From positions 1-64,000 of the forward strand of contig DAOUPT010000014.1 of assembly GCA_030626025.1 (NCBI GenBank): 64,000 nucleotides of DNA, given 5' to 3'. This DNA is from Anderseniella sp. (GTDB lineage: Bacteria; Pseudomonadota; Alphaproteobacteria; Rhizobiales; Aestuariivirgaceae). Every line of letters starts with the position of its first letter. The first letter of the stretch is position 1. Below are positions 6,385-63,221 of the stretch, in pieces. The position numbers and the translations under genes are program-made. Under the pieces are notes generated by a model that worked only from the letters and a program-made list of their open reading frames with translations, searched no databases and had not been told where the DNA came from.

Positions 6385-6399
6385 ATGGCAGAGAGGAAG
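6385..6399 (+). other. Candidate left attachment site (attL) of the island
   Basis: ATGGCAGAGAGGAAG here is identical, in the same orientation, to 24932-24946, the 3' end of tRNA-Ser(GCU). It lies 160 bases before the integrase start. A 15-base match to a tRNA 3' end beside a tyrosine integrase fits a duplicated att core. Identity ends exactly at these limits. Confidence 0.6.
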
Positions 6400-6558: not shown

Positions 6559-7791
6559 ATGGCAATAATTACCGACATTCTCGCCCGCAATATGGCTCCT
6601 CGCAGTAAATCAATCAGCGACGGAGTAGTTACCGGACTGAGTCTACACCCTGGTTCGGTGAAAGGTCGTGGCAAATGGATTTTGCGTTATGTCTCGCCAG
6701 TTGCAGGCAATCGAAGGGACATGGGTTTAGGGACTTACCCCAATATTGGAATCGCCAATGCCAGAGCGAAAGCGAACGCTGCACGCCAGGAAATTGTTGC
6801 TGGTCGGGACCCAATTGACGAACGCAACGCCAGGAAGCGAGACAGGAGAACCTCAGCAGCCGTCTTGTGTTTCAGTGAGGCTACGAAAAAGGTGCATGCG
6901 GAACTGAGCCCGGCTTGGAAAAACACTAAGCATAAGGCACAGTGGCTTACTACAATGCGAGATTATGTGTTTCCTTATATCGGTAAATGTAAGGTTGATA
7001 TTCTGACACCCGCAGATTTCGCTGATGTGCTCAGGCCCATCTGGCTCAGCAAACCTGAGACGGCATCGCGAGTTAAGCAGCGTTGTCATACAGTGATAAA
7101 GTGGTGCTGGGCCTGCGGTCTAGTGCAGGGTAATCCATTGGACGTCGTTGATCATTTGTTGCCCCAGCAGCCTGCAAAGCGGATTAGGGTCCAACATCAA
7201 CCAGCTATGCCATGGAAAGCGGTGCCGAAGTTCGTAGCTAATGTCCTTCATAATGGCAAAACGAATGTAACGCGGGCCATTATTGAGTTCACAATTTTGA
7301 CGGCTGCTCGTTCAGGCGAAGTACGCGCGATATGCTGGGAGGAAATCGGGTTCGCCAACAAGATATGGACTATCCCTGCAGAGCGAATGAAGACTGGAGT
7401 TGAGCACCGAGTGCCGTTATCAGCTAGGGCGATTGCTATTCTTCACGCGCAACGCGTTTTGCACCCAGACACTGACCTTGTGTTTCCCTCGATACAGGGC
7501 AAAGTTCTTTCCGATATGGTAATGACAAAGTTCTTGCGCGATCGTCAGGCGCCCAGCAGTACAGTAGGCAGAACGGCCACCATGCACGGTTTTCGATCGA
7601 CCTTTCGTGACTGGGCTTCAGAAAATGGGTATGCTCGCGACTTAGCAGAACGGGCCCTTGCTCACACTATTACAAATCAATCTGAGGCTGCGTATCATCG
7701 AACGGATTTGCTTGAACAACGGCGGGCGATGATGGAGGCTTGGGCAAAATATGTACAGAGCCTACATCGACCTGATGCTCATAGCTGTTAG
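6559..7791 (+). CDS. int: Tyrosine-type site-specific integrase
   Basis: This 410-residue protein is of the P4/CP4-57 type. The N-terminal Arm-binding domain (about 1-95) ends in GLGTYPNIGIANARAKA, typical of tRNA-targeting integrases. The catalytic domain shows the first Arg in TAARSGEVRAI, HGFRSTFRDWA with the His-x-x-Arg pair, and AERALAHTITNQSEAAYHR with the final His and nucleophilic Tyr. It would recombine the island's att site with the tRNA-Ser 3' end. It looks intact. The ATG at 6559 lacks a strong ribosome-binding site. Confidence 0.93.
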   Translation: MAIITDILARNMAPRSKSISDGVVTGLSLHPGSVKGRGKWILRYVSPVAGNRRDMGLGTYPNIGIANARAKANAARQEIVAGRDPIDERNARKRDRRTSAAVLCFSEATKKVHAELSPAWKNTKHKAQWLTTMRDYVFPYIGKCKVDILTPADFADVLRPIWLSKPETASRVKQRCHTVIKWCWACGLVQGNPLDVVDHLLPQQPAKRIRVQHQPAMPWKAVPKFVANVLHNGKTNVTRAIIEFTILTAARSGEVRAICWEEIGFANKIWTIPAERMKTGVEHRVPLSARAIAILHAQRVLHPDTDLVFPSIQGKVLSDMVMTKFLRDRQAPSSTVGRTATMHGFRSTFRDWASENGYARDLAERALAHTITNQSEAAYHRTDLLEQRRAMMEAWAKYVQSLHRPDAHSC

Positions 7792-7822: not shown

Positions 7823-8058
7823 TTATTCTCGTGGTGCATCACGCCAGCGCAAGCCGTTACGCAGAACAAATATGATGCCGGAAATCACCTTTTTATCGTC
7901 AACACGTGCGATACTGTGAGACCGTGGAAAACAGGGTTTAATGCGTTCAAGCTGCTCGTCAGAAAGCCAAATCAAATCATTCATTTGCGAATCCTCCTGA
8001 ACACAGGGAATCACAAATCAACCCAAAATGGAATCCTGAAAATTAGTGGGTCCTGAGC
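7823..8058 (-). mobile_element. IS5-family transposase remnant
   Basis: From ATG 7984 the reverse strand encodes about 53 residues: LSDEQLERIKPCFP, then VISGIIFVLRNGLRWRDAPRE, then a stop. This is the N-terminal DUF4096-type part of IS5-group transposases and is cut off right after WRDAPRE. A likely terminal sequence, GGGTCCTGAGCC, lies near 8047-8058. The catalytic region and the other end are missing, so it cannot move by itself. Confidence 0.7.
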
Positions 8059-8099
8059 CTGGAAAGGCAAGATACAAATGTAAGTACACAATATTAAAA

Positions 8100-12350: not shown

Positions 12351-13685
12351 TTATTTTATCTCGACGACTTTGCCGGCATCACGCTTGAGGTTCCAAAATC
12401 CCAGCACCGAACCGTGAAAACCGTAGGTGTAATAAACCGCATGACTTAACCGGGTATGCCAGAACAGCGATGCCAAAACAAATGCCGCAGCCGCGCCATT
12501 AATTCCATATCCTGTCGCAAGTCCAATATTCAGCAGCCCCAGTAAAACAAGGCCGGAGCCGAAAATTGGAATCATTCTGTTTTGTTGCCCTGCAAGATTG
12601 AGCAATTGCACATTCGGCCCGCACATAGCGATGACCAGTTGCACTGCCATCAGTACCACGATGGTCTTTGCACCGACACGAAATTCCTCACCAAACAGAC
12701 CAAGTATCTGTTCGCCATAGACAGCCGCCAGCAAGGTTGCCGTGCCCGCAAACGCTATTGTCAGCCCATTGGCCCGCCGCAAGGATGCCATTATCTGTTC
12801 AAATTCGTTACGGGCATAGGCCTTGGACAAATCCGGCATGAGCAACTGGAAAATCACCTGAAGCACAAACCCGGTAAGCATCGCCAAACGAAAACAGATG
12901 CTGAAGATTGCAATGTCCTGTTTTGATAACAACAGCGCCAGCAGCAGTATGTCCAGATCACCAATGAGCGACGTGAGCATAACGACGATGGTCATTGGCA
13001 ACGCGGCCCGTGACCAGGTTTTCGTATCAACTGTTTTGGCCCGGGCGGTAAAAAGCTCTTTTTTACGCCGCTGCAAAATAAACATCTGTGCCGCTGACAG
13101 CAAAAAGACAATCGTTACAAAAGCCCAAAGAACCGGTAGAACATTCGGGCCGGGCAAAAACCACACCAGCGCCATGGTCGCTGCAAGCAACATGGCCGGT
13201 TTAACAAGAAGGTCCGGAAGAAACGACAAGATTGTATAGCGCAAACTGACAGCAAGAGCGCCATTAAGCCGCATTAGCCCGAGAAACGGCGCAGCAAAAC
13301 TACCAAAGCCGAGCGCAATTCTTACATGATCAGGCAAGATTGAGGAAGGAAGCAAATATGCCAGGGCTGCAATACTGAGGGCAACAGCCGACATGAAAGC
13401 CAGATGCTTCCGGCTTGAGTGCACAAACCCTGCCGCCAAACTATATTTTTTATCCGCTAGATATGGTGGTATGAAGCGCGGTGTTACCGATGGAAATCCC
13501 AGACAAACAGCTATCCCCATAACGCCTGCCACCGCAACAGTCAAAACATAAGTTCCCAGTTCCCCCGCACCCAGCCACCTGGCCAGAACAACTTGCAATA
13601 TCAATGCCAGAACTGCCCCGCCGAGCCGTAACGAAAATACTGATGCGGCAAGCTTTACCAGAACTCGAAAGCTGAGTGGTGTCAT
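12351..13685 (-). CDS. Oligosaccharide flippase family protein (Wzx/PST type)
   Basis: This 444-residue protein is almost wholly hydrophobic with about 12-14 membrane helices. It opens with ASVFSLRLGGAVLALILQVVLAR and WLGAGELGTY, the hallmark N-terminus of polysaccharide flippases (MOP superfamily). It should move a lipid-linked or otherwise polar building block across the inner membrane. Its ATG overlaps the stop of the FemAB-like gene as ATGA, so it is coupled to it. It is the last intact gene of the six-gene operon. Confidence 0.85.
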   Translation of the reverse strand: MTPLSFRVLVKLAASVFSLRLGGAVLALILQVVLARWLGAGELGTYVLTVAVAGVMGIAVCLGFPSVTPRFIPPYLADKKYSLAAGFVHSSRKHLAFMSAVALSIAALAYLLPSSILPDHVRIALGFGSFAAPFLGLMRLNGALAVSLRYTILSFLPDLLVKPAMLLAATMALVWFLPGPNVLPVLWAFVTIVFLLSAAQMFILQRRKKELFTARAKTVDTKTWSRAALPMTIVVMLTSLIGDLDILLLALLLSKQDIAIFSICFRLAMLTGFVLQVIFQLLMPDLSKAYARNEFEQIMASLRRANGLTIAFAGTATLLAAVYGEQILGLFGEEFRVGAKTIVVLMAVQLVIAMCGPNVQLLNLAGQQNRMIPIFGSGLVLLGLLNIGLATGYGINGAAAAFVLASLFWHTRLSHAVYYTYGFHGSVLGFWNLKRDAGKVVEIK

Positions 13686-14833
13686 CTGCCAAGCCAGCTC
13701 TGTACGGTTTGCGCATTAAAACTGCGCACATTGCGGACCAGCGACCTCAAACCCGTTACACTTTCAGCCACAATCCAGCTAAGCGGATCATCCCAGGTTT
13801 CAAACTCACCGGGCATGGCATAAATTACACCTTCCTTGCCGGTCAGACCTTTTTTGAACTGACGCAATCCCGGTTCCATGGCCTCACCGCCAAGATCATA
13901 CCAGTGGACATCCTTTCGCTCGCTCAGCCGGTTGATGATCCACCACTGCATCGCATACCCCGCCTTTAATTGCAGGGCGCGATCATCGGTTGCACCAAAA
14001 AGATAAGAAGCCGTATCACCAATCGATCCAATAACAGCCCCGGCTGTCGGTTTGCCGTCGTGTTCGACCAGAACAATTTCCGGAGTCATGCCGTCAGGAA
14101 GCTCGTTTGCCAGGTCTTTGAGAGCATTGACCGGTGTGCTTTCATTGAACCCCTTACGTTTGATCATTGTTTCGTACAGCGACATAAAACGGTCCAGAGA
14201 CTCACCCGTAGTGCTGGCTGAAATGGTGAATTCGTTTTTCAGCGACTTGCGAAGATTATAGCGCCATTTTTGCTGCAAGCTGCTCATTTGCGCCTGCTCA
14301 TCCAGACTCACATTGACCAGAAACCGGTTTGGGTCGACCATCTTGCCGCTAATTTGGAAACCGTGATTGTGCAGGACTTTTTCCGCCGACCTGCCAAAAT
14401 CAGCATCCGGTGGCAACAGCACCATAACCATCAGGCCGCGACGAATGCTGTATTCCTGTTTGATCGCCTCGGCAATTGTTGCCAGCGTATTCAGATCAGG
14501 CTGTCGGCCCTTGCGTCGCCACATAGGACCCATTTTGAGATAGGCAATCCCCTTGTTGATCAGCGGCGCGGTCAGAACAACCAAAGCAGCAGCAGCCAAT
14601 GGCTCCCCATTTTGGCTAACGACAATATGGCTCAGTTTTTCGCTGCCCCATTTATCGGCGAGAAACGAGGTCGACTGATCGTAGGTTGCATCCTCAAATT
14701 GGCAGATGGTTTGCGCCCATTGTTCGCGCGTGCACTGATCAATTGCCACACTGATCCCGGGCACCGAGTGCAACCTAGCAGCAATCTCTTTGGCACTGAC
14801 CAAAGCCTCTGGACGCGCAATAACACGACTCAT
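13682..14833 (-). CDS. FemAB-like aminoacyl/acyl transferase (double GNAT fold)
   Basis: This 383-residue soluble protein looks like the FemAB/BioF2-like group. AYLKMGPMWRRKGRQ lies in the first GNAT half. SLQQKWRYNLRKSLKNEF near residue 190 is the basic helix that precedes the second half. GYAMQWWIINRLSER and WYDLGGEA...LRQFKKGLTG form the C-terminal signature found in FemAB-like proteins. Relatives attach amino acids from aminoacyl-tRNA to peptidoglycan precursors, or acylate polysaccharides. It overlaps both neighbours by four bases. The true substrate is unknown. Confidence 0.75.
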   Translation of the reverse strand: MSRVIARPEALVSAKEIAARLHSVPGISVAIDQCTREQWAQTICQFEDATYDQSTSFLADKWGSEKLSHIVVSQNGEPLAAAALVVLTAPLINKGIAYLKMGPMWRRKGRQPDLNTLATIAEAIKQEYSIRRGLMVMVLLPPDADFGRSAEKVLHNHGFQISGKMVDPNRFLVNVSLDEQAQMSSLQQKWRYNLRKSLKNEFTISASTTGESLDRFMSLYETMIKRKGFNESTPVNALKDLANELPDGMTPEIVLVEHDGKPTAGAVIGSIGDTASYLFGATDDRALQLKAGYAMQWWIINRLSERKDVHWYDLGGEAMEPGLRQFKKGLTGKEGVIYAMPGEFETWDDPLSWIVAESVTGLRSLVRNVRSFNAQTVQSWLGR

Positions 14834-16086
14834 GATGTTTTCTCCTCAAGAGTTTTGATTGTTTTCCCTGACCGGGAACTGTCTAAAAACCGCCGCACGA
14901 TTGGCACTTGCCGACCAAACAGCACAAGTTCGGGCACAGGATCTGAAATGCTTCCACTTAACTGGAAATCGGCCCGAATAACGGTAACTACCATCTTCAT
15001 CGCCCACACCGCAGCATCGAAAATACCGATTTCGCCTTCCGCAATAGCTGATTTGAGGCCTCGAATGTCGCCATAGGTCCAGCCGTAACGCAAGCCGGTT
15101 TTTGTTTTGTATGACACCCGGCCGCGATCATACTGGCCGTTGGCAATTGTCACCGCCAATTCTGTCAGCGGCAGCCCGGCAGCCTCGGGTACGGCATGAC
15201 TGCCTGAAATGCGCGGGTTTAGTTCGAGAAAGCATCGCTCTCCCGAGCGCTCATCGATTATAAACTGGGTCAGCCCGATGCCCGAATAGCCGGTTGCCGC
15301 TATCAGGGCGCTAGTATCGCGAATCAGACTTTCAGTTGGTTTTACGGTTTGGCCATCGGTCGCAAGTCCGGTGCCATCAGGATGATCAGTGCGAAAAATC
15401 CGGCTCTCGACAGCCCCGACAAGCGAGCCTTTGTCGGCAGCAAAATAAACATTGTGCCGGATACCTGTCGCAAAGCGCTGCAACAGCAATTGGTTGTGGC
15501 CGACCGGCCAGTCAGGAAACAGGGCGGCCAGCGCATCACTATTTTCAATAATTTCCGCTTTCTTGTGGCCAAGCCGGGCCGTGATGCCGACAGGCCGCAC
15601 GATCAGCGGAAAGCCGACCCTGACCGCTTCCTGCAACAGTTCGCCATGGCTGGCCACCAAAGCCGTTGGCAAACACGGAACACCGGCTTTGTCTGCCACT
15701 TCATAGGCACTTTGTTTTTTCCAGAACTTTTTAACAATTTCAGCATCAGGAGAGGCCAGAGTCACATCGCGGCAAAGCCGGTTTGCCTTTTGCGCAAGCA
15801 ACACAACAAAATCTTCCGAAATCGGTACGATGGTCTGAATTTCCGGACAGAGCTGCAAAAGCCTGTTGAGTTCTGAAAGAAAAACCTTCGGTGATTTCTG
15901 CGGACAGGGATGGTCCCAGCAACGGGCGACAAATCTGGAATATTCGATGCCACCCTCACCGCTTCCCTTGCCCAGCATGACAGAAAATCCAAGTTTGGCC
16001 AGCTTGCGGGCAACCACCAGTGCCGGGCGATAATTTCCCAGCAGCAGTACACCTTTTTTGTTCTTCATCATGGCTTTTTCAATCAT
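14830..16086 (-). CDS. ATP-grasp ligase
   Basis: This 418-residue enzyme begins with a Rossmann-like domain (GVLLLGNYRPALVVARKLAKLG), followed by an ATP-grasp fold. FPLIVRPVGITARLGHKK supplies the ATP-binding Lys/Arg. RCFLELNPRISGSHA is the Mg2+-binding Glu-x-Asn loop near residue 310. Such enzymes join a carboxylate to an amine or another nucleophile. A later Met (16068) could be the true start. There is a 120-base gap from the CotH-like gene upstream, but ATGA overlap with the FemAB-like gene downstream. It probably makes a precursor for the operon's product. Confidence 0.8.
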   Translation of the reverse strand: MIEKAMMKNKKGVLLLGNYRPALVVARKLAKLGFSVMLGKGSGEGGIEYSRFVARCWDHPCPQKSPKVFLSELNRLLQLCPEIQTIVPISEDFVVLLAQKANRLCRDVTLASPDAEIVKKFWKKQSAYEVADKAGVPCLPTALVASHGELLQEAVRVGFPLIVRPVGITARLGHKKAEIIENSDALAALFPDWPVGHNQLLLQRFATGIRHNVYFAADKGSLVGAVESRIFRTDHPDGTGLATDGQTVKPTESLIRDTSALIAATGYSGIGLTQFIIDERSGERCFLELNPRISGSHAVPEAAGLPLTELAVTIANGQYDRGRVSYKTKTGLRYGWTYGDIRGLKSAIAEGEIGIFDAAVWAMKMVVTVIRADFQLSGSISDPVPELVLFGRQVPIVRRFLDSSRSGKTIKTLEEKTS

Positions 16087-16206
16087 GTTTACCGCTTTGA
16101 TCGATGTGTGAGTCGATACCTGATACTAAATAGGCACGCAAAAACCATGCCAGCAACCAGGGACTGGATGAAACCAGCCACAATGATGGGTGGTCAAATG
16201 CCATGA

Positions 16207-18486
16207 TCAGTACGCGTTATAACCGCGGACAAGAGATGTTGGTCCGACTTTTCCTGCCACGCCTCCACAATCAAGGACACCGGCCTTTATCTCCAGCAAG
16301 CCGCCGGAAAATTCCTGTTTCTTGTTGTAGAGCTGAAAACATTGTTTAGAATTTTCGATCTTGCCGGAGCCGAGCAAAATGGAACCATAGTCTTTTGCAG
16401 CCAGGCCAATGCCGACATTTTTGGCAAAAAGTGTTTCAATCTGCGCCTTGGAAGTTTCGCCTATTGAAACCGCTTTATCGGCACATTCAACAAGATTGAG
16501 ATTAGTAGCCCGATAGGTGCCATAAGAAAGATCAAGACAGTCGTTGCCGGCTTTTTCAACCCGTAAGTTGTCGAACTTCAGCGTGGAAAAATCAGAATCA
16601 ACCGCATCAAATGCAGCATTGCGGATACGCGCGGATTTCACATTGCCGGTTACCCGGACCAGATTTACAGCATCCTCACAAGTTGCGTTGTTCACCGTCA
16701 ATTGCAAATCCGACAACTCGGCATCGATCACTGTCAGGCAACCTGTCAGGCCCTGACGGTCAAAATTCTGCTCACCGTTTTTGGTATCTTTGACATGCCC
16801 TGACACATCGTCAAATTCGACTGTCCAGCCATCAACTTGGCCGTTGGAAATTACCGCCCGTCCGCTTGCACCCGTCCGCTTTAAAGTAATTTTTCTGTTT
16901 TCCCGGTCGATATGTTGTGAAATATCGCCATAAAGGTCAAGGCGAAAGCCGCCAAGCGACACTTTCTTGTGTTTCGTCGCAGTCGCTTGCCGGTCGGCAA
17001 ATCCGGTAAATGGTTTGTCCAGTTCAGACTTCTTGAAGGCAAAATAGATCGCCGGAAAACCCTTTGGATCGACCCAGTTTTGGGCAAGCAGCACAGCCAT
17101 GATTTTTCTGTCCGGCTTGAACAGGCGGCACTGCTCCAGAGAATCCCTGCACACCTCAACTTCACCCTGCTGATCTGTGTTAAATACGTAGCTGAGTCGG
17201 TTATTTGCCTTGCGATACAAGGTTCTGGCTTTCACCTTGACCGGCTCAACTTCACTCGAGGTTGCCATCGCATCCAGACGCTTGAGCATCGAAGCAATTG
17301 CCGAGCGCAGTTTTTCCTGGCCAATATCAACACCTCTAACCTTCAGGGCTTTTTCCAGTTCACCAACATCAAGGCCCTTGACCAGCTTTGTGGCATCAGG
17401 CACCGCCTTTTGTGCTGACAGGGTGATGTTTCTGTCCAGTTTCTCGTCAGGCTTTGTCAGGATCGTTGAACCACCATCATAATAAATTGGTGTCAGGCTG
17501 TTGGAAACCGGGTCATATACCGCCCGCCGGTCATCCTGGGAAAACCCGTGCGTGCCGGCCATGCTGAAAATGACGGCTTCAAAAACCGGGTAGTTGACGA
17601 AAGTCAGTTGTTGGTTGCCTTTTTGCAGGCGCTGGGCCAATTCGACAATATCGACCATGTTGCTACCATAGATCGTCGCCCAACTCTTGTCATAGCGAAA
17701 CAGCAGCTTATTGAATTGCATCAATGCCTTTTCGGCGATTGCCATGCTTGTTGGCCCTTTTCGGGCCCATTTGTAGTTGGATATCCGCGCCAGAGCCGCA
17801 CCCTTTTTCAGATGTGCGTATTTCTGACTGAAGCCAAAGCGTTCATCCCCCTCGATTATCGGACCTTCGCGGAAGCGGCCGGCTTCAAGAAATTCCTTGA
17901 CAATTTTTTCCTGGAAAATGACTTTTACCGACGGCTTGTTGCCCCCGACAAGGCTCATTGTCGCCATCGACGTACGTGGTGACAGAAATCCCTGTTGCGC
18001 CAGCAGTGTTGCTGCAAAAACCTCATTTTTCCCGTTACGTGTTTCGGGTCGGAACAGAATGAATTTGGTGATGCCAAAGATATGACCGTCTACCAGCGAT
18101 ATATTAAGGCTCGGTTCCTCGGTCATATCACCAGGGTAATGGTCACCAAGGTCTCCGTGGGCACGGATTTTCGCCTTCACCCTGCACGAAACCGCTGATT
18201 TGGTCCGCACAATAATCGTTGCTTTGTTACGCTTTCTTTTTCGCGCATGACCGCGTTTTGCCAGCGACACATAGTTTTTGATCTTCTTTTTTACCCAGCC
18301 GCGATAATCATCGAACGCGATCTCAAAGGTTACTTCACCGAACGCATCAGGGTGAAGCGCCAGTGACTGCGTATAGGGCAATGCATTGCAACCGGGCAAC
18401 TCCGCCAGTTCTTCCAGACCCGTTGCCCTAGCCGAAGAAACACCTGACAAACACAAAGCTGCAACAAAACCAATTATCTTTTTCAT
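16207..18486 (-). CDS. Secreted CotH-kinase-like protein with C-terminal parallel beta-helix-like region
   Basis: This 759-residue protein has a signal peptide (KKIIGFVAALCLSGVSSARA). Residues about 35-330 resemble CotH: KIRAHGDLGDHYPG in place of the usual RGN(S/T) turn, VIFQEKIVKEFL, and IYYDGGST in place of the metal-binding Asp segment. Residues about 540-740 are repetitive with regular Val/Ile/Asp/Asn spacing, suggesting a right-handed beta-helix. CotH proteins are atypical secreted kinases that usually sit beside VTC and DUF4956 genes, exactly as here. The ATG at 18486 overlaps the VTC stop as ATGA. Kinase activity is uncertain because the key motifs are divergent. Confidence 0.65.
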   Translation of the reverse strand: MKKIIGFVAALCLSGVSSARATGLEELAELPGCNALPYTQSLALHPDAFGEVTFEIAFDDYRGWVKKKIKNYVSLAKRGHARKRKRNKATIIVRTKSAVSCRVKAKIRAHGDLGDHYPGDMTEEPSLNISLVDGHIFGITKFILFRPETRNGKNEVFAATLLAQQGFLSPRTSMATMSLVGGNKPSVKVIFQEKIVKEFLEAGRFREGPIIEGDERFGFSQKYAHLKKGAALARISNYKWARKGPTSMAIAEKALMQFNKLLFRYDKSWATIYGSNMVDIVELAQRLQKGNQQLTFVNYPVFEAVIFSMAGTHGFSQDDRRAVYDPVSNSLTPIYYDGGSTILTKPDEKLDRNITLSAQKAVPDATKLVKGLDVGELEKALKVRGVDIGQEKLRSAIASMLKRLDAMATSSEVEPVKVKARTLYRKANNRLSYVFNTDQQGEVEVCRDSLEQCRLFKPDRKIMAVLLAQNWVDPKGFPAIYFAFKKSELDKPFTGFADRQATATKHKKVSLGGFRLDLYGDISQHIDRENRKITLKRTGASGRAVISNGQVDGWTVEFDDVSGHVKDTKNGEQNFDRQGLTGCLTVIDAELSDLQLTVNNATCEDAVNLVRVTGNVKSARIRNAAFDAVDSDFSTLKFDNLRVEKAGNDCLDLSYGTYRATNLNLVECADKAVSIGETSKAQIETLFAKNVGIGLAAKDYGSILLGSGKIENSKQCFQLYNKKQEFSGGLLEIKAGVLDCGGVAGKVGPTSLVRGYNAY

Positions 18487-19097
18487 AGCCATTCACCCGA
18501 GCCAGATTGCGTGGCTATAATCGAGCGGGCATATTTGGAAAACCGTGTACGGCGAAACGGAAACGCTTTTGCTAGCATATCCATCGAAACATCAAATCCG
18601 GCCTTGATTTCAACCGCTGTACTGTCGTCACGTATCGGAAAAAACGACCCGGTTGCACAATACTCCAGATCAGTGTCAATGGTCAGTCGCACCCCACCGA
18701 TCTGAAAATATTCACGGTTGTAAGCCACAGAAACAACAGGTTCGCAAAAGCCGTATTCCCGGTCAAAGATGCCCTGAGTCAGCAACTCCTGCGCTTCTTG
18801 TCCAGACAGCATTTTGGTGGTTTTATGGCGCCCTTCAATCGAAGACACCTTAATTTCCAACGCGTTGTCCCTGTCATGATGGGTATTTGCGTTGTATGTC
18901 CGCACACGGATTTTTTTGCGCGGCACAGAGCCTTCCTCTGATGCGTTGAAAATATCCAGCTCGGCATTATCGAAATAGGTTGAGTAGATCTTGCGTTTGG
19001 GATGAAGCAAAATCGCTTTTTCATCCGAAAGCCATTTAAACAGACTTGCAAGCTGATTGGCCCTAACGAGCAGTTTTTCTTCGACACGAAAACTCAT
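18483..19097 (-). CDS. VTC-domain protein (polyphosphate polymerase-like, TTM fold)
   Basis: This 204-residue single-domain protein has the charged tunnel residues of the VTC/triphosphate tunnel family in order: RVEEKLLV, STYFDN, KKIRVRTY, ALEIK, RLTIDTDLEY, AVEIK and RTRFSKYAR. In yeast Vtc4 this domain makes polyphosphate from ATP. In bacteria the domain is mostly found with CotH and DUF4956 genes and its product is not settled. It lies 12 bases after the DUF4956 gene and is coupled to the CotH-like gene. Confidence 0.85.
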   Translation of the reverse strand: MSFRVEEKLLVRANQLASLFKWLSDEKAILLHPKRKIYSTYFDNAELDIFNASEEGSVPRKKIRVRTYNANTHHDRDNALEIKVSSIEGRHKTTKMLSGQEAQELLTQGIFDREYGFCEPVVSVAYNREYFQIGGVRLTIDTDLEYCATGSFFPIRDDSTAVEIKAGFDVSMDMLAKAFPFRRTRFSKYARSIIATQSGSGEWL

Positions 19098-19109
19098 TTT
19101 TCAGGGCCC

Positions 19110-19775
19110 TTAGATCAGGTTCCCCGAATAACGCACATTCACACTGTCGATTTCAGGGTCCAGTTGCAGACGTTTGATCATCTGGTCAGTTTCTTGCCGG
19201 GTCCGAAAAGCCAGTCTGTAGCTGTAGATATCGTTTTGCTTGTCAAGCTGAACATTTTGCAGACTTTCAGCCTGTAAAAGTGCATCGATGACTTTTTTGC
19301 TTCTGGTTTCGATCAGATTGGCCGGCATGCCTTCATCAAACGACAACGAGAACAGCGGCGTGTTTTGGCGTGCATAGATTTTCTCAAGGAAATGGGCACC
19401 AAATACTGTTGCCAATACCAGTCCCAGCAGCAGCAAGGCCCATTGCGCGTTAACCCCGGCGGCAATGCCGATTGTCAGCAGGGAAAACAGGATAACCAGT
19501 TCAAACGGATTTTTGACAGGGTTTCTGAAACGTACAATCGACAGCGCGCCAACCATACCGATTGACAACGTCAAATTTCCTGAAATGACTTTGGTAATGA
19601 CCAGGGTGATCAGCGGCAGCAGAACAAAAGTCAGGGTGTGGTGATAGGTTGCGACCCACCGCTGGCCAACAGCTGACAGGGCATAGCGGATCAAAAAGCC
19701 GGAACTTCCTGCAATCACGATTGGTAAAATGATGTCCTGTTTTGCCTTAAGCAACTCAAAAAGTGTATCAAACAT
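19110..19775 (-). CDS. DUF4956 membrane protein
   Basis: This 221-residue protein has about four membrane helices in its first 140 residues. IGMVGALSIVRFRNPVKNP is the signature of DUF4956, and the C-terminal cytoplasmic part (about 140-221) looks like a small alpha-beta domain. It is the first gene of the operon. DUF4956, VTC and CotH form a conserved trio, so this is likely the membrane anchor or channel of the complex (inference). Confidence 0.88.
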   Translation of the reverse strand: MFDTLFELLKAKQDIILPIVIAGSSGFLIRYALSAVGQRWVATYHHTLTFVLLPLITLVITKVISGNLTLSIGMVGALSIVRFRNPVKNPFELVILFSLLTIGIAAGVNAQWALLLLGLVLATVFGAHFLEKIYARQNTPLFSLSFDEGMPANLIETRSKKVIDALLQAESLQNVQLDKQNDIYSYRLAFRTRQETDQMIKRLQLDPEIDSVNVRYSGNLI

Positions 19776-19883: not shown

Positions 19884-20435
19884 TTAACGCATCGTCCGAA
19901 TATGGGCGAAACGCCCGTTTTGGCCCAGCCGCACCCCTGTCCACTCTGGTAGACGCGGGCTGTCGCCGGGGATGGGGTTCTTGTTGGCAGTGATGTCAGC
20001 CCGTTCCAGAATTGTTTTAACCTGTTTGCTGTTCAGGCCCCTGGATGACACATCGATCAGTGCGATATCGTCGTCGGTGCTGCCTGAAACGATGTGAAGG
20101 TCGCGATTTGACAGTGTGCGCCAGCCAGGGTGCTCGCGTTGTCGGCGACAACGGGCCGCATAGTCCCTGAACTTACCCTCCAGCGCCTCGCCAAACCGAC
20201 AGATACATTGTCGAGGGCAAGCCCAGCCGGTGAACCAACCATTCAATATCTTTGAACCGTAAGCATAGGTCACGCTGTCATGGCTTGAACCGGGGAAGCC
20301 TGTTGTCGTGGTGGCGACATCCGCACCGTGAACCGTAGCAATGCACACTGTTGTCATGGCTGGCAGTGCAACGACTGTTTGGCAAGGGTATGGGGTATCA
20401 GCATAAAGCTCACGGCAATCGGCAAGAGGCCCCAC
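19884..20435 (-). pseudogene. glyA: Degenerate serine hydroxymethyltransferase (glyA) remnant
   Basis: The open frame of 183 codons is not a normal protein, but stretches match SHMT in order. HGADVATTTT fits the HADVVTTTTHKTL region that leads to the PLP lysine, which is missing here. FGEALEGKFRDYAAR follows, then LHIVSGSTDDDIALIDVSSRG, then LERADITANKNPIPGD and GVRLG. The N-terminal half and many residues are gone. It is a decayed fragment about 110 bases upstream of the DUF4956 start. The host should have an intact glyA elsewhere. Confidence 0.75.
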
Positions 20436-22087: not shown

Positions 22088-22161
22088 GCGGGCGTAGCTC
22101 AGCGGCAGAGCTGCGATCTACCCGATTGTGTGCATAGGTTCGAATCCTGTCGCCCGCTCCA
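22088..22161 (+). tRNA. tRNA-Gly-like gene with anticodon ACC
   Basis: The 74 bases fold into a full cloverleaf: acceptor GCGGGCG/CGCCCGC, D stem GCTC/GAGC with GG in the loop, anticodon stem GCGAT/ATTGT with two G-T pairs, loop CTACCCG, T stem ATAGG/CCTGT, loop TTCGAAT, then T-CCA encoded. G1-C72, C2-G71, U73 and C35-C36 are glycine identity elements. Position 34 is A (anticodon ACC, codon GGU) and position 37 is C, both very unusual in bacteria. It is either a decaying copy or a specialised tRNA. Confidence 0.7.
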
Positions 22162-22467
22162 TTCTACCTCCCGAGTCTTAGTTGGGTCAAAAACTCCCAT
22201 AAGCGTGGATTGAAATGTACGGCAGTAATTATCTCAACTGCAGACAACATTGGCAAACATATTGACCGGTGAAAGAGTGCCACAAGTTGACACTCGGCGT
22301 GTCGTTTTGATTGATAGATTGTGCTTTTAGCCATCTTCAATAGAGTCTGATTAAAACTCAAGAATTGCCAGATTTGCAACATTGGCACGATCATTGCTCA
22401 GTTATCAGGCATAGCACATGCACGTCTCTTTCTGACAGGGAGAGCCTGCAGACTGGAAGGAAGGTTG
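22162..22467. other. Gap without recognisable gene
   Basis: The 306 bases between the tRNA-Gly-like gene and the formyltransferase hold no gene I can support. GGAAGGAAGG just before 22468 is a strong ribosome-binding site for the formyltransferase. Confidence 0.4.
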
Positions 22468-23280
22468 ATGAGTAACGTATCCGAAACGCCATTGGGCGAC
22501 AAGGTTGACAATGAACAGAAGTCGCGCATTGTTTTTTTGACCAGTGGAGGTGAACTCTACTGGATCATTGCAAACGCCTTAGTTGAGCGGTTCGGGCCAA
22601 TACTCGTTATCCAGGAAAAAGCTGAGTCAAAAGGCGTGTTTCTCAAGCGCCGGATAAAGATACTTGGCCGCGTTGCAGTTATAGGACAAGTTGCATTCGG
22701 TATTCTGACTAAGTTTATCTACAGATTAAGCTGGCATCAACATCACAAGATCATTTCAGATGCTGGGGCAAATTCAGACTTTCCAAGAAGGTGCCCCGTC
22801 GTCAGAGTTCCGAGTGTAAATTCCAGGGAATGTCGACAGGCACTCAAATCCGCAGCACCGGATGTCGTAATGGTCGTCGGCACCCGGATTATCAGCAGGC
22901 CCACATTGAGTTGCATCGACGCCCCTTTCATAAACTATCACCCTGGATTAACCCCAAATTATCGCGGCATGAATGGCGCATACTGGACGCTTTCCAGCGG
23001 TGATGCGGAGAGCCTGGCGATTACAATGCATCTGGTCGATGAAGGCGTGGATACAGGTGACATCCTCTACCAAGAGCGAGTTGTCATGCCGTCAGGAAAC
23101 AATGTCACAACCTACCACCACTATATGGCAATTGAAGCACGGCAATGGGCAGTGAAGGCTGTCGAAGATGCCTTGAGCGACCGTTTGAAACCTTGGAAGT
23201 CCGACGCAGATTCTCGCCAATGGTTCCACCCGACCTTGTGGGGTTATCTATGGTGTGGGCTTACAAGGAGGGTTTGGTGA
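22468..23280 (+). CDS. Formyltransferase-family protein
   Basis: This 270-residue protein has the formyltransferase fold. FINYHPGLTPNYRGMNGAYW near residue 155 contains the Asn-x-His-x-(S/G)LLP-like active-site loop, and HLVDEGVDTGDIL holds the conserved Asp. Relatives use 10-formyltetrahydrofolate to formylate Met-tRNA, GAR or sugar amines. It lacks the C-terminal tRNA-binding domain of Fmt and is longer at the N-terminus than PurN, so a sugar- or peptide-amine substrate is likely (inference). It may modify the island's surface polymer. Confidence 0.8.
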   Translation: MSNVSETPLGDKVDNEQKSRIVFLTSGGELYWIIANALVERFGPILVIQEKAESKGVFLKRRIKILGRVAVIGQVAFGILTKFIYRLSWHQHHKIISDAGANSDFPRRCPVVRVPSVNSRECRQALKSAAPDVVMVVGTRIISRPTLSCIDAPFINYHPGLTPNYRGMNGAYWTLSSGDAESLAITMHLVDEGVDTGDILYQERVVMPSGNNVTTYHHYMAIEARQWAVKAVEDALSDRLKPWKSDADSRQWFHPTLWGYLWCGLTRRVW

Positions 23281-24237: not shown

Positions 24238-24932
24238 CCATAACGCTACAATCTGGCACACAGCCAAAAGCCGAGATAACCGCTACGGTAAAGCAGGCTC
24301 GCGACCGGGGCGATTTAGACCATCACCTGATGCGAGTATACTCACCTTCAACGTGAAGCATGACCGGACCGGGCAACATCGTCCCAACAGGTGCGTCCCA
24401 GTCAATCACACGACCGACCTTGAACGGGTTACGGCCATGATCACCAACCATTTTCCGTGCGGTAGATGCCCACCGGTGGACCATATTAAGCGGCCTGTTG
24501 TGTATGGCCAGTGATGCGATGCCCAGAATATAGGGATTGAGGTCGGTCAGGTTGCCTTTGGTGCGCCATACGGTGTATGCGCCTTCTACGGCATCATTTA
24601 GATACCTTAAATAACGGACATAGAACGCATTTGTTGATCATCTCGATTGGGTAATGAGTATTCAGCCTAATCTCAAATTCAAAATTTTTAAAAAACTTTA
24701 TGAGCAAACAAGTAAGTAGCACCCCCTTGCTCAACCCATTCCCCCCTTACCCCGTCTGAGCAGAAAAAGAATTCTTTTTGCAAAAGCACCATTGGTGCAG
24801 CTGGCATGGTAGTTATACGGGACCCGTCTTAGTCAAGCGACGTCAACAACGTCGCTTATGTGGGTCTACATGTGGGGCCATATCGACTAGATCATATATA
24901 ATTGTTAAATAACAATACCTTACGATGAAATA
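24238..24932. other. Island right end: gene remnant and AT-rich DNA
   Basis: Apart from the orphan reverse-strand frame at 24323-24637, this 695-base stretch shows no gene. It includes pyrimidine-rich runs (CCCCTTGCTC, CCCCCCTTACCCC near 24720-24756) and becomes AT-rich up to the tRNA-Ser 3' end. Confidence 0.45.
24323..24637 (-). pseudogene. Orphan open frame, probably a gene fragment
   Basis: The reverse frame is open for 104 codons with protein-like content (AVEGAYTVWRTKGNLTDLNP, MVHRWASTARKMVGDHGRNP, GRVIDWDAPVGTMLPGPVML) but has no start codon near its beginning. The first Met is about halfway in. The regular mix of charged, aromatic and Gly/Pro residues looks like a piece of a real protein cut off at the N-terminus. 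I do not recognise the family. Confidence 0.4.
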
Positions 24933-24946
24933 TGGCAGAGAGGAAG
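24932..24946 (+). other. Candidate right attachment site (attR) within tRNA-Ser
   Basis: The 15-base copy of 6385-6399 covers the CCA end and acceptor 3' strand of tRNA-Ser(GCU). The tRNA stays whole, as expected when an element recombines into a tRNA 3' end. Confidence 0.6.
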
Positions 24947-25022
24947 GGATTCGAACCCTCGATACGCGTTAACGTATACTCCCTTAGCAGGGGAGCGCCT
25001 TCAGCCACTCGGCCACCTCTCC
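24933..25022 (-). tRNA. tRNA-Ser(GCU)
   Basis: The 90-base reverse-strand gene has acceptor GGAGAGG pairing with CCTCTCT (the last pair is G-U), the long variable arm of serine tRNAs (TATACGTTAACGCGTATC), anticodon loop CTGCTAA with GCT, and an encoded CCA. The G1-U72 pair departs from the usual G-C and may reflect replacement of the 3' end by element DNA. Confidence 0.93.
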
Positions 25023-41216: not shown

Positions 41217-42125
41217 AAAGCGCAGGGCATTGGATACCTGGGCTTTGAGATTGTTGAGGTTAAAGGCAATGCTGATAACGTGGTGAAATTCAAAGCCTAG
41301 AAAACTCTAAAAATTGTAAGGGACAGAAAACCATCAATACTTAGGGGCCAATATGCCATATTTGCCGTTAATTTGTGAAATACCCATTGGTCCTTATAAC
41401 CTTCGTCGTCCACCGAATCCGGTCGGTATTTTGCCTAGTGGCAATGGACCACGCCTGTACTAGTTTTCATGTGACAGCATTGGCCAGGCGGCGAACTTTT
41501 TCGGCAACCGCCACCATGTGCTTGGGCAATTGTTGGTAGGACCATAGATAAAATTCCAATTGCTAATACGACTACTTTCATTGCTGGCACTCCCATAAAG
41601 TTCGCATAACGTCTCCACTAAAGCATGGCTCCTTTTTTGAGATTCATGTGACATGCTTTAAGTCTTTGTTTTTACGCATGTCTTTATCCCAAAACCGGTG
41701 CCCACTTTTGGGAGACATGCTTTAATCGTAGCCTTCAATTATTTACTGGAAGTTAAATTCAACCATGGGCAACTAAACTAAACCTGAATGGTAAAGTGTT
41801 TGCCATCATATAAAATTGGACAAAATCTTGGATGCAAACATTGGACCGAACCGATACCATCAAAATCGAACCGTCTCAAGACTGATATCGATTCCACGTT
41901 CATGAAGTAAATTTTCCACGTTGCAGAGTGAGAGCAGAAAGCGGACGTACATTATCACCGCAACGCGAATGATTTCAGGTGAAGCCTTGAAATAGCGGAA
42001 TGGATTTTTCATCAACCAAGCCTACGAGGCGTGCAAACAGAGCTCAAGTTATTTTCCTCTGACAGTGCCTCTGGCACGTTTTTTGCTGCGGTATGATGGC
42101 CAGAAACAAGCAGGAAAATCCAACC
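41217..42125. other. Long gene-poor stretch
   Basis: The 909 bases contain no gene I can support. A 36-codon frame (41353-41463) has no ribosome-binding site and a Pro-rich product of doubtful value. Two palindromic repeats lie at 41617-41726. The end holds the promoter for the YdcF-like gene. Confidence 0.45.
41617..41726. repeat. Palindromic intergenic repeat, two copies
   Basis: GCATGTC (41676-41682) pairs with GACATGC (41714-41720), and CCCAAAA (41688-41694) with TTTTGGG (41706-41712), around CCGGTGCCCAC. This design, with AAAACCGG in the loop side, is that of short palindromic repeats found in many copies in Hyphomicrobiales. A weaker copy with GCATG/CATGC ends lies just before it (41617-41657). 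Confidence 0.6.
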
Positions 42126-54122: not shown

Positions 54123-54192
54123 AGAAAAAAAGGGGCCGACCCGGGGAAGTTTTTCGAGGAGGCCTCTCGAACTTTCCGGATCGGCCGACCCC
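54123..54192 (-). terminator. Strong terminator hairpin on the reverse strand
   Basis: Read on the reverse strand, GGGGTCGGCCGATCCGGAAA (54192-54173) and AGTTCGAG pair imperfectly with CTCGAA...CTTCC...GGGTCGGCCCC (to 54132), and seven T follow (54131-54125). It is a textbook terminator for transcripts coming from the pleD side. It lies about 255 bases after pleD, so it may also end a small RNA encoded in 54193-54449. That interval holds no protein gene. Confidence 0.65.
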
Positions 54193-54449
54193 ATGGGCAT
54201 CAGGAGATGCGGCGGACCTGAAGCACCGCGGGGGTAGATCGATTGATTCACCTATTACTTGAAGCCCCGAATGCGAGGACAAGTGTTTCACGATGAACCA
54301 ATTCGGTTTTCGGGAATATACAATGCAACCTTGGTGCCAAGATGGGGCCCGGAAGATGTTTTTTGTGGTTGAAATTTGATAATTGGTGGAACTACGTCAG
54401 ACAATCCGCCAAATTTGGCCATTTTGTGACCGATGTGGAAACGAACTAA

Positions 54450-61308: not shown

Positions 61309-62064
61309 ATGACCAAATCCATAGACTGGCTAAGAGCCCGCCCGATTGCGCACCGTGGTTTGCACGATGTTTCACAACGGGTTGTTGAAAACACCAGGAC
61401 GGCATTCGATCTGGCAATCGCTGGTAATTATGCCATTGAGTGTGATTTGCAGATTTCATCCGATGGCGAGGCCATGGTGTTTCACGACCCTGATCTCGCC
61501 CGGCTTACTTTTCAGAAAGAACATGTAAATTCCCTGACTGTCGCCCAACTGAAAGAAGTCAACTTCAGGGACAGTGATGACAAAATTCAAACACTTGGTG
61601 AATTGCTGTCTCAGGTCGCTGGTAGAGTGCCGCTTGTTATCGAGCTTAAATCTCTGGTCGATGGAGACATGCGCCTGGCAGAACGGGCGATTGAAGTTCT
61701 GCGCACCTATAAGGGCGACTACAGTATCATGTCATTTGGTCCGATGCTGATGCGGGCGGTTAAAGACCTGGCACCACAAATATTGCGCGGTGCTGTTGTC
61801 ATGCCTGATACAGAAAAACTGTGGTTGCAGTCTCCCCTGCATGAAAATCCGCCGACGGGCGAAACGCCATCGGCAACGATGCTTGATTTGGTTGATCCTG
61901 ATTTTTTGTCCTATGATGTCAGAGGCCTGCCCAGCGAGTTTGTGTGGAAATTCAAATCGGCAACAAAACCGGTTATTTGCTGGACCATAAAAGATCAAAA
62001 AACCGCTGATTTTGGCTATAAATATTGTGACCAGATGACTTTTGAAGGCTTTACACCAAAGTGA
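61309..62064 (+). CDS. Glycerophosphodiester phosphodiesterase
   Basis: This 251-residue protein has IAHRGLHDVSQRVVENTRTAF at the N-terminus with the conserved His-Arg and Glu, followed by IECDLQISSDGEAMVFHDPDLARLT with the metal ligands and second His. KSLVDG and ICWTIKDQKTADFGYKYC complete the TIM-barrel. It cleaves glycerophosphodiesters to glycerol 3-phosphate. There is no signal peptide, so it is cytoplasmic. It overlaps the next gene by four bases (GTGA). Confidence 0.88.
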   Translation: MTKSIDWLRARPIAHRGLHDVSQRVVENTRTAFDLAIAGNYAIECDLQISSDGEAMVFHDPDLARLTFQKEHVNSLTVAQLKEVNFRDSDDKIQTLGELLSQVAGRVPLVIELKSLVDGDMRLAERAIEVLRTYKGDYSIMSFGPMLMRAVKDLAPQILRGAVVMPDTEKLWLQSPLHENPPTGETPSATMLDLVDPDFLSYDVRGLPSEFVWKFKSATKPVICWTIKDQKTADFGYKYCDQMTFEGFTPK

Positions 62065-63221
62065 GTACGACCGAATGGACGCTAGAAACCATTTCGACGT
62101 TGGATGATATTTCCAGCACCGAATGGAACATCTGCGCCCAATCTGGCAACCCTTTTATTCGCTATGAGTTTTTGCATGCACTGGAAGCTTCGGGTTCGGC
62201 CTGCGCTGAAACCGGATGGTATGCCCAACATCTGATTTTACGGGATGAAACCGGTCAGGTGAGAGCTGTGGTTCCGGCCTATTTGAAAAGCCATAGTTGC
62301 GGTGAATATGTATTTGATCAGTCATGGGCCGAAGCGTTTCAACGGGCCGGTGGGAATTACTATCCCAAGTTACAAGTCAGTGTACCCTTTACTCCCGCAA
62401 CTGGTCCGCGTCTTTTGATCAAACCTACAGACAATGAAAAGCCGGTAATTCAGGCTTTGGAACACGGCTTACGCTCACTGTGTGAGCGGCACCAATTATC
62501 GTCAGCTCACATCACATTCATGACCCAAAATCAATCAGAAGCCATGAGCGAACTGGGCTGGTTGCAACGCACCGATACGCAGTTTCACTGGCAGAACAAC
62601 AACTACCAATGCTTTGACGACTTCCTTGGTGCCCTTTCTTCGCGCAAACGCAAAAACATTCGAAAGGAACGGGCCAGCGTTGCCAAATTGGGCTTTACGT
62701 TCGAACTGATATCAGGCAAGGACATTAAGGAGCACCATTGGGACAGATTTTTTGAATTCTATCATGACACCGGTGCCCGCAAATGGGGCACTCCCTATTT
62801 AACCCGGAGCTTTTTCAGCCTGATCTCCCATTACATGGCCGATGATGTATTGTTGATCATGGTCAAGGACGGTGATCGCTATATCGCTGGTGCATTGAAT
62901 TTCATTGGAAGCAGTACTTTGTACGGGCGCTATTGGGGCACCCTTGAAGACTATCCGGGTTTGCATTTTGAAACCTGTTATTATCAGGCAATGGAATTTG
63001 CCATTGCTCAAGGCTTGCAAACAGTAGAAGCCGGTGCACAAGGGCCGCACAAACTGGCCCGAGGTTATGTGCCAGTCACGACATGGTCAGCCCACCACAT
63101 CAGCAATCCAGATTTTTCTGCCGCCATTAGTGACTATCTAAACCGCGAAAGGTCTTATGTGGAACAGGACAATGAGATATTGTCGAACCAGACACCATTT
63201 AAAAAAGGGACAGATCAATGA
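62061..63221 (+). CDS. FemAB-like / DUF482 peptidoglycan-type transferase
   Basis: The protein has 386 residues from a GTG start that overlaps the phosphodiesterase stop (GTGA). GNPFIRYEFLHALEASGSA is the DUF482 N-terminus. FLGALSSRKRKNIRKERASV, FYHDTGARKWGTPYLTRSFF and VEAGAQGPHKLARGYVPVTTWSAHHI are further marks of this FemAB-related double-GNAT family. The role is unproven. It is not the same subgroup as the island's FemAB-like protein. Confidence 0.85.
   Translation: MSTTEWTLETISTLDDISSTEWNICAQSGNPFIRYEFLHALEASGSACAETGWYAQHLILRDETGQVRAVVPAYLKSHSCGEYVFDQSWAEAFQRAGGNYYPKLQVSVPFTPATGPRLLIKPTDNEKPVIQALEHGLRSLCERHQLSSAHITFMTQNQSEAMSELGWLQRTDTQFHWQNNNYQCFDDFLGALSSRKRKNIRKERASVAKLGFTFELISGKDIKEHHWDRFFEFYHDTGARKWGTPYLTRSFFSLISHYMADDVLLIMVKDGDRYIAGALNFIGSSTLYGRYWGTLEDYPGLHFETCYYQAMEFAIAQGLQTVEAGAQGPHKLARGYVPVTTWSAHHISNPDFSAAISDYLNRERSYVEQDNEILSNQTPFKKGTDQ

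Follow-up and report, generated by a model that had tools for sequence, protein, structure and literature searches.

The window analysed here is a stretch of 64,000 nucleotides (nt) from Anderseniella sp. (assembly GCA_030626025.1, contig DAOUPT010000014.1, positions 1 to 64,000, forward strand). According to the listing of its open reading frames (ORFs), six of them follow one another in the same orientation on the minus strand, spanning 12351-19775. They encode a DUF4956 protein, a VTC-domain protein, a CotH-like protein, an ATP-grasp ligase, a FemAB-like transferase and a flippase. A first-pass annotation had assigned the same six families, which are confirmed by the ORFs and Pfam, and for the CotH-like protein by profile and model. 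The six genes form two modules: DUF4956-VTC-CotH is module 1, and the ATP-grasp, FemAB-like and flippase genes are module 2, also called the cassette here. Four features had been overlooked earlier, namely an extra tRNA-Gly, sigma-54-type sites, a beta-helix in the CotH-like protein, and the fact that the cassette is common.

The DUF4956 and VTC genes are separated by 12 bases and the CotH-like and ATP-grasp genes by 120 bases, and ATGA overlaps join the ATP-grasp gene to the FemAB-like gene and the latter to the flippase gene. These spacings agree with the first-pass values. The exception is the VTC/CotH junction, where the overlap is 10 bases with the first ATG and becomes the annotated ATGA (4 bases) only with the second. 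The Pfam scan took in 40 window ORFs, locus neighbours included, whereas mechanical ORFs of at least 100 amino acids number 102 in the window. No glycosyltransferase, Wzy or other pel-type gene was found among the 40, in keeping with the earlier statement that a glycosyltransferase and a sugar-polymerase are missing. The features are collected in Table 1.

Table 1. Positions of the six genes and of associated features in the window
Feature	Position	Strand	Evidence or remark
DUF4956 protein: N-terminal helices (membrane), ACT-like C-terminal domain (predicted)	19110..19775	-	Pfam 32.2 bits (cut-off 30.6)
VTC-domain protein	18483..19097	-	VTC 78.6 bits (cut-off 23), 7e-22; profile to yeast Vtc4 3g3q 1.1e-10
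CotH-like protein: predicted kinase domain 52-414 and right-handed beta-helix 502-761	16207..18492	-	model and profile
ATP-grasp ligase	14830..16086	-	CPSase_L_D2 60.5 bits (cut-off 19.8), 2.2e-16
FemAB-like transferase	13682..14833	-	Acetyltransf_6 51.6 bits (cut-off 22), FemAB 46.1 (24); family profile to FemX 1ne9 1e-12
Flippase, MOP-type	12351..13685	-	MatE 26.9 bits (cut-off 24.9); Polysacc_synt 25.7, under its 28.2
Sigma-54-type site between modules, TGGCATG-N4-TTGC	16138..16152	-	exact; starts 66 bases upstream of ATP-grasp ORF
Divergent extra tRNA-Gly (ACC), A49-U65 and A51-U63	22088..22161	+	ARAGORN; Rfam 47.3 bits; T-stem comparison
Second exact sigma-54-type site on island	22383..22397	+	ends 67 bases before formyltransferase ORF
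Formyltransferase	22465..23280	+	Formyl_trans_N 4.7e-19; sigma-54-type site ahead
Tyrosine integrase	6559..7791	+	Phage_integrase, Phage_int_M, Arm-DNA-bind_3; phrog_1 integrase 4.8e-50
Left attachment repeat, 15 bp	6385..6399		exact copy of tRNA-Ser 3' end
Right attachment repeat	24932..24946		3' end of tRNA-Ser(GCT) 24933-25022(-)

Distribution and pairing of the two modules

The ATP-grasp, FemAB-like and flippase genes are a common cassette that is separate from module 1. Among 150 relatives, own genome included, ATP-grasp relatives occur in 17 at E 1e-20 and FemAB-like relatives in 26 at E 1e-10. Twenty regions (L062-L081) were compared: 15 came from the remaining 16 ATP-grasp genomes, all but G091, where a contig end intervenes, and five from genomes with a FemAB match only. 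The three cassette genes are adjacent in 12 regions (L062, L063, L065-L071, L073, L074 and L076); in L066, L067 and L069, one gene masked by a longer overlapping frame was placed by its match coordinates. The remaining regions hold FemAB-like and flippase genes without the ATP-grasp gene (three), an ATP-grasp gene without a FemAB-like gene beside it (three), or a FemAB-like gene without an adjacent flippase (two). Module 1 genes were detected at E 1e-5 in none of the 20 regions, among the ORFs kept. A second GNAT gene (F3) and an unnamed membrane protein gene (F4) occur in six regions each, the latter once behind the flippase. Three matches to the second GNAT in the own genome, at 22-26% identity, are too distant to assign as a copy.

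The window flippase is 53% identical to the flippase of L077 and 47% identical to that of L062, both of which are encoded beside FemAB-like genes. L062 contains the nearest ATP-grasp relative and belongs to the same family. Downstream of its cassette, in the same orientation, come genes for NeuB, an epimerase and a cytidylyltransferase, which hint at a nonulosonate-type glycan, a case seen once. No glycosyltransferase cluster sharing the flippase was met in the loci examined; the nearest cases are the NeuB-type genes of L062 and a Wzy_C gene in L082, described below. Among 72,556 plasmid records, no ATP-grasp match was obtained at 1e-30, and a pattern search of viral contigs gave no FemAB relatives. 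A gene for a membrane protein of roughly 230 amino acids, for which Pfam gives no match, adjoins the ATP-grasp gene in three regions (L071:9275-9949, L064:10743-11441 and L065:8514-9410); unlike these, the window has no such gene ahead of its ATP-grasp gene. In two further loci (L152:7821-10344 and L153:8873-11396), the FemAB-like gene has beside it an ATP-grasp gene that is less closely related to that of the window (2.9e-12 and 2.6e-10), and these pairs are perhaps a sister cassette.

For module 1, CotH relatives at E 0.001 are present in 5 of 385 genomes of the class and in 4 of 327 genomes of the order, one of the latter weak, with the own genome included in both counts. A pattern-based scan of genome contigs yielded 20 CotH loci, 14 of which are Pelagibacteraceae by title, while the rest include one Prochlorococcus and one Amylibacter. 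The whole trio is found in 14 of these loci; the remaining six each lack one gene and have a CotH frame that reaches a locus end. Gene order was compared in 20 whole-trio loci, which include the window and loci from other searches besides those of the contig scan (L090, apparently the same contig as L010, is counted apart). The order is DUF4956-CotH-VTC in 18 of them, and DUF4956-VTC-CotH only in the window and L082. On plasmids, the CotH-like protein has no match and DUF4956 has two partial matches.

L082, from the Hyphomicrobiales metagenome-assembled genome OFTM377, is the second locus in which the modules are paired. Its order is DUF4956-VTC-CotH-ATP-grasp-ABC transporter-FemAB-GNAT, with the Wzy_C gene divergently upstream. 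The two gene groups, joined in the first-pass annotation, are linked elsewhere too, in 1 of the 20 CotH loci from the contig scan; in the other 19, neither ATP-grasp nor FemAB relatives were detected at E 0.1 within the flanks compared. The CotH-like proteins of the window and L082 share 61% identity in the best segment and 59% over the alignment, and the next loci reach 35% or less. The cassette proteins share 37% (ATP-grasp) and 33% (FemAB) identity, and each is nearer to cassettes elsewhere. Trees place the window and L082 apart. When the two were forced into one clade, the approximately unbiased p-value (p-AU) was 7e-183 for FemAB, which rejects such a clade, and 0.041 for ATP-grasp. Where the window has its MOP flippase, L082 has the ABC transporter, which matches the HepA (2.5e-91) and PglK (2.7e-87) models, both far under cut-off. 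PglK/HepA-type ABC exporters (NCBIfam) resemble this transporter, unlike the MatE-type flippase family of the window. One trio is combined with cassettes of different descent and transporter type, suggesting two joins, or one join and a later swap. The marginal ATP-grasp clade test and the long branches on the L082 rows weaken the case for this history.

Exact TGGCAYRNNNNTTGC lies in the intermodule gap of both the window (16138-16152) and L082 (12260-12274). Upstream of the first cassette gene, an exact sigma-54-type site is present in 7 of 21 cassettes and a site with at most one mismatch in 11, compared with 2 and 14 of 240 control ORFs from the same loci (Fisher 2.5e-7 and 1.2e-7; 2.4e-5 and 3.6e-6 without the window and L082). 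Besides the window and L082, the 21 cassettes comprise 19 of the regions compared, all but the truncated L076, and the controls exclude the window. The test was designed after exact matches had been seen, and it relied on mechanical ORF starts and on the -24/-12 sigma-54 consensus. None of 19 trio starts has such a site upstream at one mismatch or fewer. The window contains three exact sites, where about 0.12 are expected, and a sigma-54 (RpoN) domain protein is present in the genome. The third site (42072-42086, plus strand) lies outside the island, right before a DUF218 gene. Counts of sigma-70 promoters and terminators across the region were no higher than in shuffles. In the preferred reading, the modules have separate histories and, as predicted from these sites, separate promoters. 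Against this reading stand the absence of an exact site from 14 of the 21 cassettes and two weak terminator-like matches in the 120-base gap of the window, although such matches are at chance level in the region. The first-pass annotation had described a single six-gene operon. The genes are indeed contiguous, but the site in the gap and the occurrence of the halves apart elsewhere weaken the single operon and make it doubtful.

The same facts bear on whether the modules belong together at all. They may be unrelated cargo that became neighbours by chance, module 1 serving a chromosomal polysaccharide and module 2 something else. The mostly separate occurrence of the modules in the 20 cassette regions and the 19 CotH loci fits this view, as does the sigma-54-type site that separates them. 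It is nevertheless unlikely, as adjacency, gene order and site are all found again in L082, there with a cassette that comes from a different lineage. On two cases, and judged from sequence comparison, this recurrence speaks for a working link of the modules.

The island and its extra tRNA-Gly

All six genes lie between the attachment repeats of an 18.5-kb island at tRNA-Ser. The 15-bp repeat has exactly two copies in the window, and a primase/helicase is encoded at 9356 on the island. The integrase together with the tRNA-Ser repeat supports a mobile island, as had been proposed. Genomes G001-G003 carry the left flank of the island, and none of the six genes has a match in them. Their two flanks are on different contigs or next to other genes in the stretches examined, so that a joined empty site was not seen, a point against the preferred reading. 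The formyltransferase on the island is a possible, though uncertain, third unit of the system; no relatives of it were detected at E 1e-3 when the ORFs of the other loci were compared.

The island also carries a divergent extra tRNA-Gly. Among the 21 loci L062-L082, tRNAs were found only in L065 and L082, and each is a tRNA-Gly(TCC) that follows the last cassette ORF in the same orientation, after 152 bases in L065 and 130 in L082. The tRNA-Gly genes of the window, L065 and L082 have their 3' 29 bases in common except for three positions. This signature occurs in no other locus compared at up to two mismatches, and its exact form is absent from the viral contigs. By BLAST, the L082 tRNA-Gly is 83% identical to those of the window and L065 and at most 77% identical over full length to ordinary tRNA-Gly (five genomes matching, a sixth without a match). 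Global identity of the window tRNA-Gly is 72-74% to the L065 and L082 genes and at most 71% to the rest.

The common feature of the three tRNAs lies in the T-stem. The pairs A49-U65 and A51-U63 are present in all three cassette- or island-linked tRNA-Gly and in none of the 13 other distinct tRNA-Gly compared (p = 1/560). Twelve of these 13 have G49-U65 with G51-C63, and one has G49-U65 with C51-G63. Both A-U pairs occur together in 1 of the 28 remaining distinct tRNAs, a tRNA-Val. The available part of a study on Staphylococcus aureus describes A49-U65/A51-U63 exchanges in three tRNA-Gly as a signature of weak EF-Tu binding (PMC4052509). These data suggest that the island tRNA-Gly may be set aside for polymer rather than protein synthesis.

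The FemAB-like enzyme would be the consumer of such a tRNA. Besides FemX (Table 1), its family profile matches the lipid II:glycine glycyltransferase 6snr, so the protein appears to be related to the FemABX family, with aminoacyl-tRNA as its putative donor. It scores 43.3 bits against the NCBIfam FemX equivalog, below the cut-off of 500. Aminoacyl chemistry, put forward in the first-pass annotation, is thereby supported as a likely theme.

Islands insert at tRNA 3' ends. Accordingly, the three tRNA-Gly genes could be leftover attachment-site copies of mobile DNA, unrelated to FemAB-like activity. Their near-identity over the 3' 29 bases and the other tRNAs near some FemAB loci are in favour of this explanation. 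It is considered rather improbable, as the attachment repeat of the island is at tRNA-Ser and not at tRNA-Gly, and ordinary copies exist as well in G000 (GCC on C7, TCC on C134) and G088 (CCC, TCC and GCC). In addition, the common change of the three tRNAs hits both pairs known to set EF-Tu binding, as far as the accessible text states (PMC4052509).

Several observations weigh against a dedicated tRNA-Gly. Only three linked cases exist. G18-G19, replaced in the S. aureus tRNAs, is kept in the linked tRNA-Gly (by eye, from the Rfam alignment). The window tRNA-Gly lies 2.3 kb from DUF4956 on the opposite strand and not behind the cassette. No tRNA was found in the 18 other cassette regions of L062-L081 or in the truncated one. 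Eleven further FemAB-match regions contain no tRNA-Gly, although three hold Thr, Lys or Leu tRNAs (two implausible ARAGORN predictions are omitted from this tally), and nine more flanking stretches of known cassettes contain none either, one of them holding Gln and Pro tRNAs. In one locus (L149:8755-8829), a tRNA-Thr lies 117 bases ahead of a FemAB-like gene on the same strand, possibly reflecting another amino acid donor, or chance.

The closest known parallel is the staphylococcal FemXAB system, in which, according to the part of the source available, a FemAB-family enzyme is likewise accompanied by tRNA-Gly with A49-U65 and A51-U63 (PMC4052509). The present case differs in its alphaproteobacterial host, the retained G18-G19, a putative acceptor, an island-borne tRNA, and the presence of an ATP-grasp ligase and a flippase. 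HfsK of the Caulobacter holdfast, likewise a tandem GNAT protein resembling FemX, is connected with a surface polysaccharide. In contrast, in the available part of that report, its neighbours gave no functional hint, and neither an ATP-grasp/flippase cassette nor a tRNA is described (PMC5362036). Among the literature matches listed (best 10 of 18 and best 25 of 45), no title concerns a dedicated tRNA-Gly outside staphylococci.

Other features were observed nearby. A 237-bp stretch (window 7824-8060) has a 91% identical match in the same-genus genome G003 (C44); it was rejected as evidence of synteny, for its reading frame looks like a transposase fragment. A serine hydroxymethyltransferase fragment (PF00464, C-terminal part; 19884-20435, minus strand), apparently decayed, lies upstream of DUF4956. 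Outside the island, a protein of another family, FemAB_like (PF04339, 531.6 bits), is encoded at 62061-63221 (plus strand) behind a GDPD gene, and the small RNA EcpR1 (Rfam RF02500, 72.8 bits) lies at 54129-54236 (minus strand).

Predicted proteins of module 1 and related systems

Neither Pfam nor NCBIfam gives a match for the CotH-like protein at E 0.01, and the Pfam CotH cut-off is hence not reached. Its relatives score 65.5 bits (L013, above the cut-off), 23.7 (L003) and 19.6 (L106), the last two below it. A six-sequence profile retrieves the solved Bacillus cereus CotH 5jd9 with E 6.6e-5. In the AlphaFold model, built with 15 sequences (mean pLDDT 84.9), residues 52-414 superpose on 5jd9 with Z 19.7 over 305 aligned residues, and Foldseek matches the model to 5jda at 6.9e-8. 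D339 is invariant in 15 of 15 sequences and aligned with the Asp of the 5jd9 IPWD motif, presumably a metal-binding residue. The HN of CotH relatives is replaced by DD in the window protein. The second domain (about 502-761) resembles AlgE4 (Z 20.0) and AlgG (Z 18.6). Tailspikes and pectin enzymes give similar Z values, so the beta-helix indicates a fold and not one enzyme class. The protein is predicted to combine a CotH kinase fold with an AlgE/AlgG-like beta-helix, and the latter, as modelled, points to a polysaccharide. Export is probable in view of a hydrophobic signal-like N-terminal stretch.

Ten residues of the VTC core (R64, R66, E81, K83, K92, R128, R137, E163, K165 and K188) are invariant in 18 of 18 aligned sequences. 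The VTC-domain protein appears to retain the conserved basic/acidic core of VTC polyphosphate polymerases, and polyphosphate synthesis is its putative function. The DUF4956 model (pLDDT 83.4) shows helices followed by a beta-alpha-beta domain, with matches to Lrp/AsnC and ACT. In two other loci (L087:2-2707, 1.6e-31; L100:9872-12670, 3.1e-33), CotH-like proteins are fused to inorganic pyrophosphatase (PF00719), and the fusion genes directly precede VTC, the frame in L087 being truncated by the start of the locus. A Metallophos match slightly under the Pfam cut-off follows the trio in L089. Together, the pyrophosphatase fusions and the Metallophos match suggest that phosphate chemistry is a theme of module 1.

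The families of the trio are known from Gram-positive Pel loci. In the portions of the sources available, they adjoin Pel genes in streptococci, clostridia and bifidobacteria (PMC7112168), and the same three families are contiguous there, with a secreted CotH and a DUF4956-type protein having transmembrane segments and ACT (PMC7112168, PMC12345266). The present locus differs in that no pel genes occur among the window ORFs scanned, the CotH-like protein has a beta-helix, and the host is Gram-negative. In Streptococcus intermedius, Pel decreases when the CotH-type gene is lost and increases when the DUF4956-type gene is lost, and each loss reduces aggregation by more than 50% in 10% ASM (PMC12345266). 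Deletion of the polyphosphate-polymerase gene left Pel and aggregation in place, no such effect being stated for it, which counts against the preferred reading; the authors did not find their trio outside Pel loci (PMC12345266).

These deletions allow another explanation, in which CotH, VTC and DUF4956 act as signalling proteins that regulate polymer making and do not modify the polymer. The opposite shifts in Pel amount fit it, within the limits of that partial source (PMC12345266), as does the ACT-like domain predicted in DUF4956. Spore-coat CotH is a protein kinase, according to the part of the source at hand (PMC7112168). A regulatory role is regarded as somewhat unlikely, as the window CotH has, as a fused second domain, a beta-helix resembling those of epimerases and lyases that act on polysaccharides, and the proteins of L087 and L100 are fused to pyrophosphatase.

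Proposed route to a decorated surface glycoconjugate

The preferred reading is tentative and stands a little short of an even chance. The two modules of the locus would together produce a decorated glycoconjugate of the cell surface: a lipid-linked unit fed by glycyl-tRNA would be flipped and then phospho-modified outside. We infer every reaction in this route, as well as glycine as the donor and the action of both modules on one polymer. First, the ATP-grasp enzyme would form an amide-type bond on the lipid-linked unit in the cytosol. The FemAB-like enzyme would attach an amino acid, glycine being the likeliest, taken from the charged tRNA-Gly of the island; the T-stem of this tRNA should bind EF-Tu weakly and thereby spare it from the ribosome. 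The flippase would then turn the product outward. Second, VTC may make polyphosphate in the cytosol, with DUF4956 as a membrane sensor or partner. Finally, the exported CotH-like protein would grip the glycan by its AlgE/AlgG-like beta-helix and phosphorylate it.

The product could also be of another kind. Instead of a surface polysaccharide, the cassette might modify a peptidoglycan precursor or make a small exported peptide. Peptide natural-product pathways include ATP-grasp and FemX-like enzymes, and no glycosyltransferase is encoded among the window ORFs scanned. The FemX substrate is a peptidoglycan precursor, as given in the available part of PMC4052509. This alternative is judged improbable in view of the beta-helix in module 1, the NeuB-type neighbours in L062 and the Wzy_C neighbour in L082.

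A broader form of the two-module system can be hypothesized, although its full combination is quite unlikely. Gram-negative bacteria would carry mobile "amino-acid diversion" cassettes, in which an EF-Tu-escaping tRNA-Gly feeds a FemAB-like enzyme that, with the ATP-grasp enzyme, glycylates a lipid-linked glycan. This activity would be coupled to VTC-DUF4956-CotH, with exported polyphosphate as the phosphate donor of the secreted kinase, resulting in a glycylated, phosphorylated surface polymer. The first-pass annotation had called the six-gene combination undescribed, and no paper on it was found among the literature matches listed (in one search the best 25 of 106, with few subscription papers covered).

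Should the FemAB-like enzyme be fed by the tRNA-Gly, the staphylococcal split between tRNAs for the surface and for translation would have a Gram-negative parallel, one that can move between hosts on an island. For the DUF4956-VTC-CotH trio, the locus provides a set of partner genes and an idea that can be tested, namely that polyphosphate is the phosphate source for a secreted CotH kinase. A polyphosphate donor, if true, would explain how the kinase works extracellularly despite scarce ATP.

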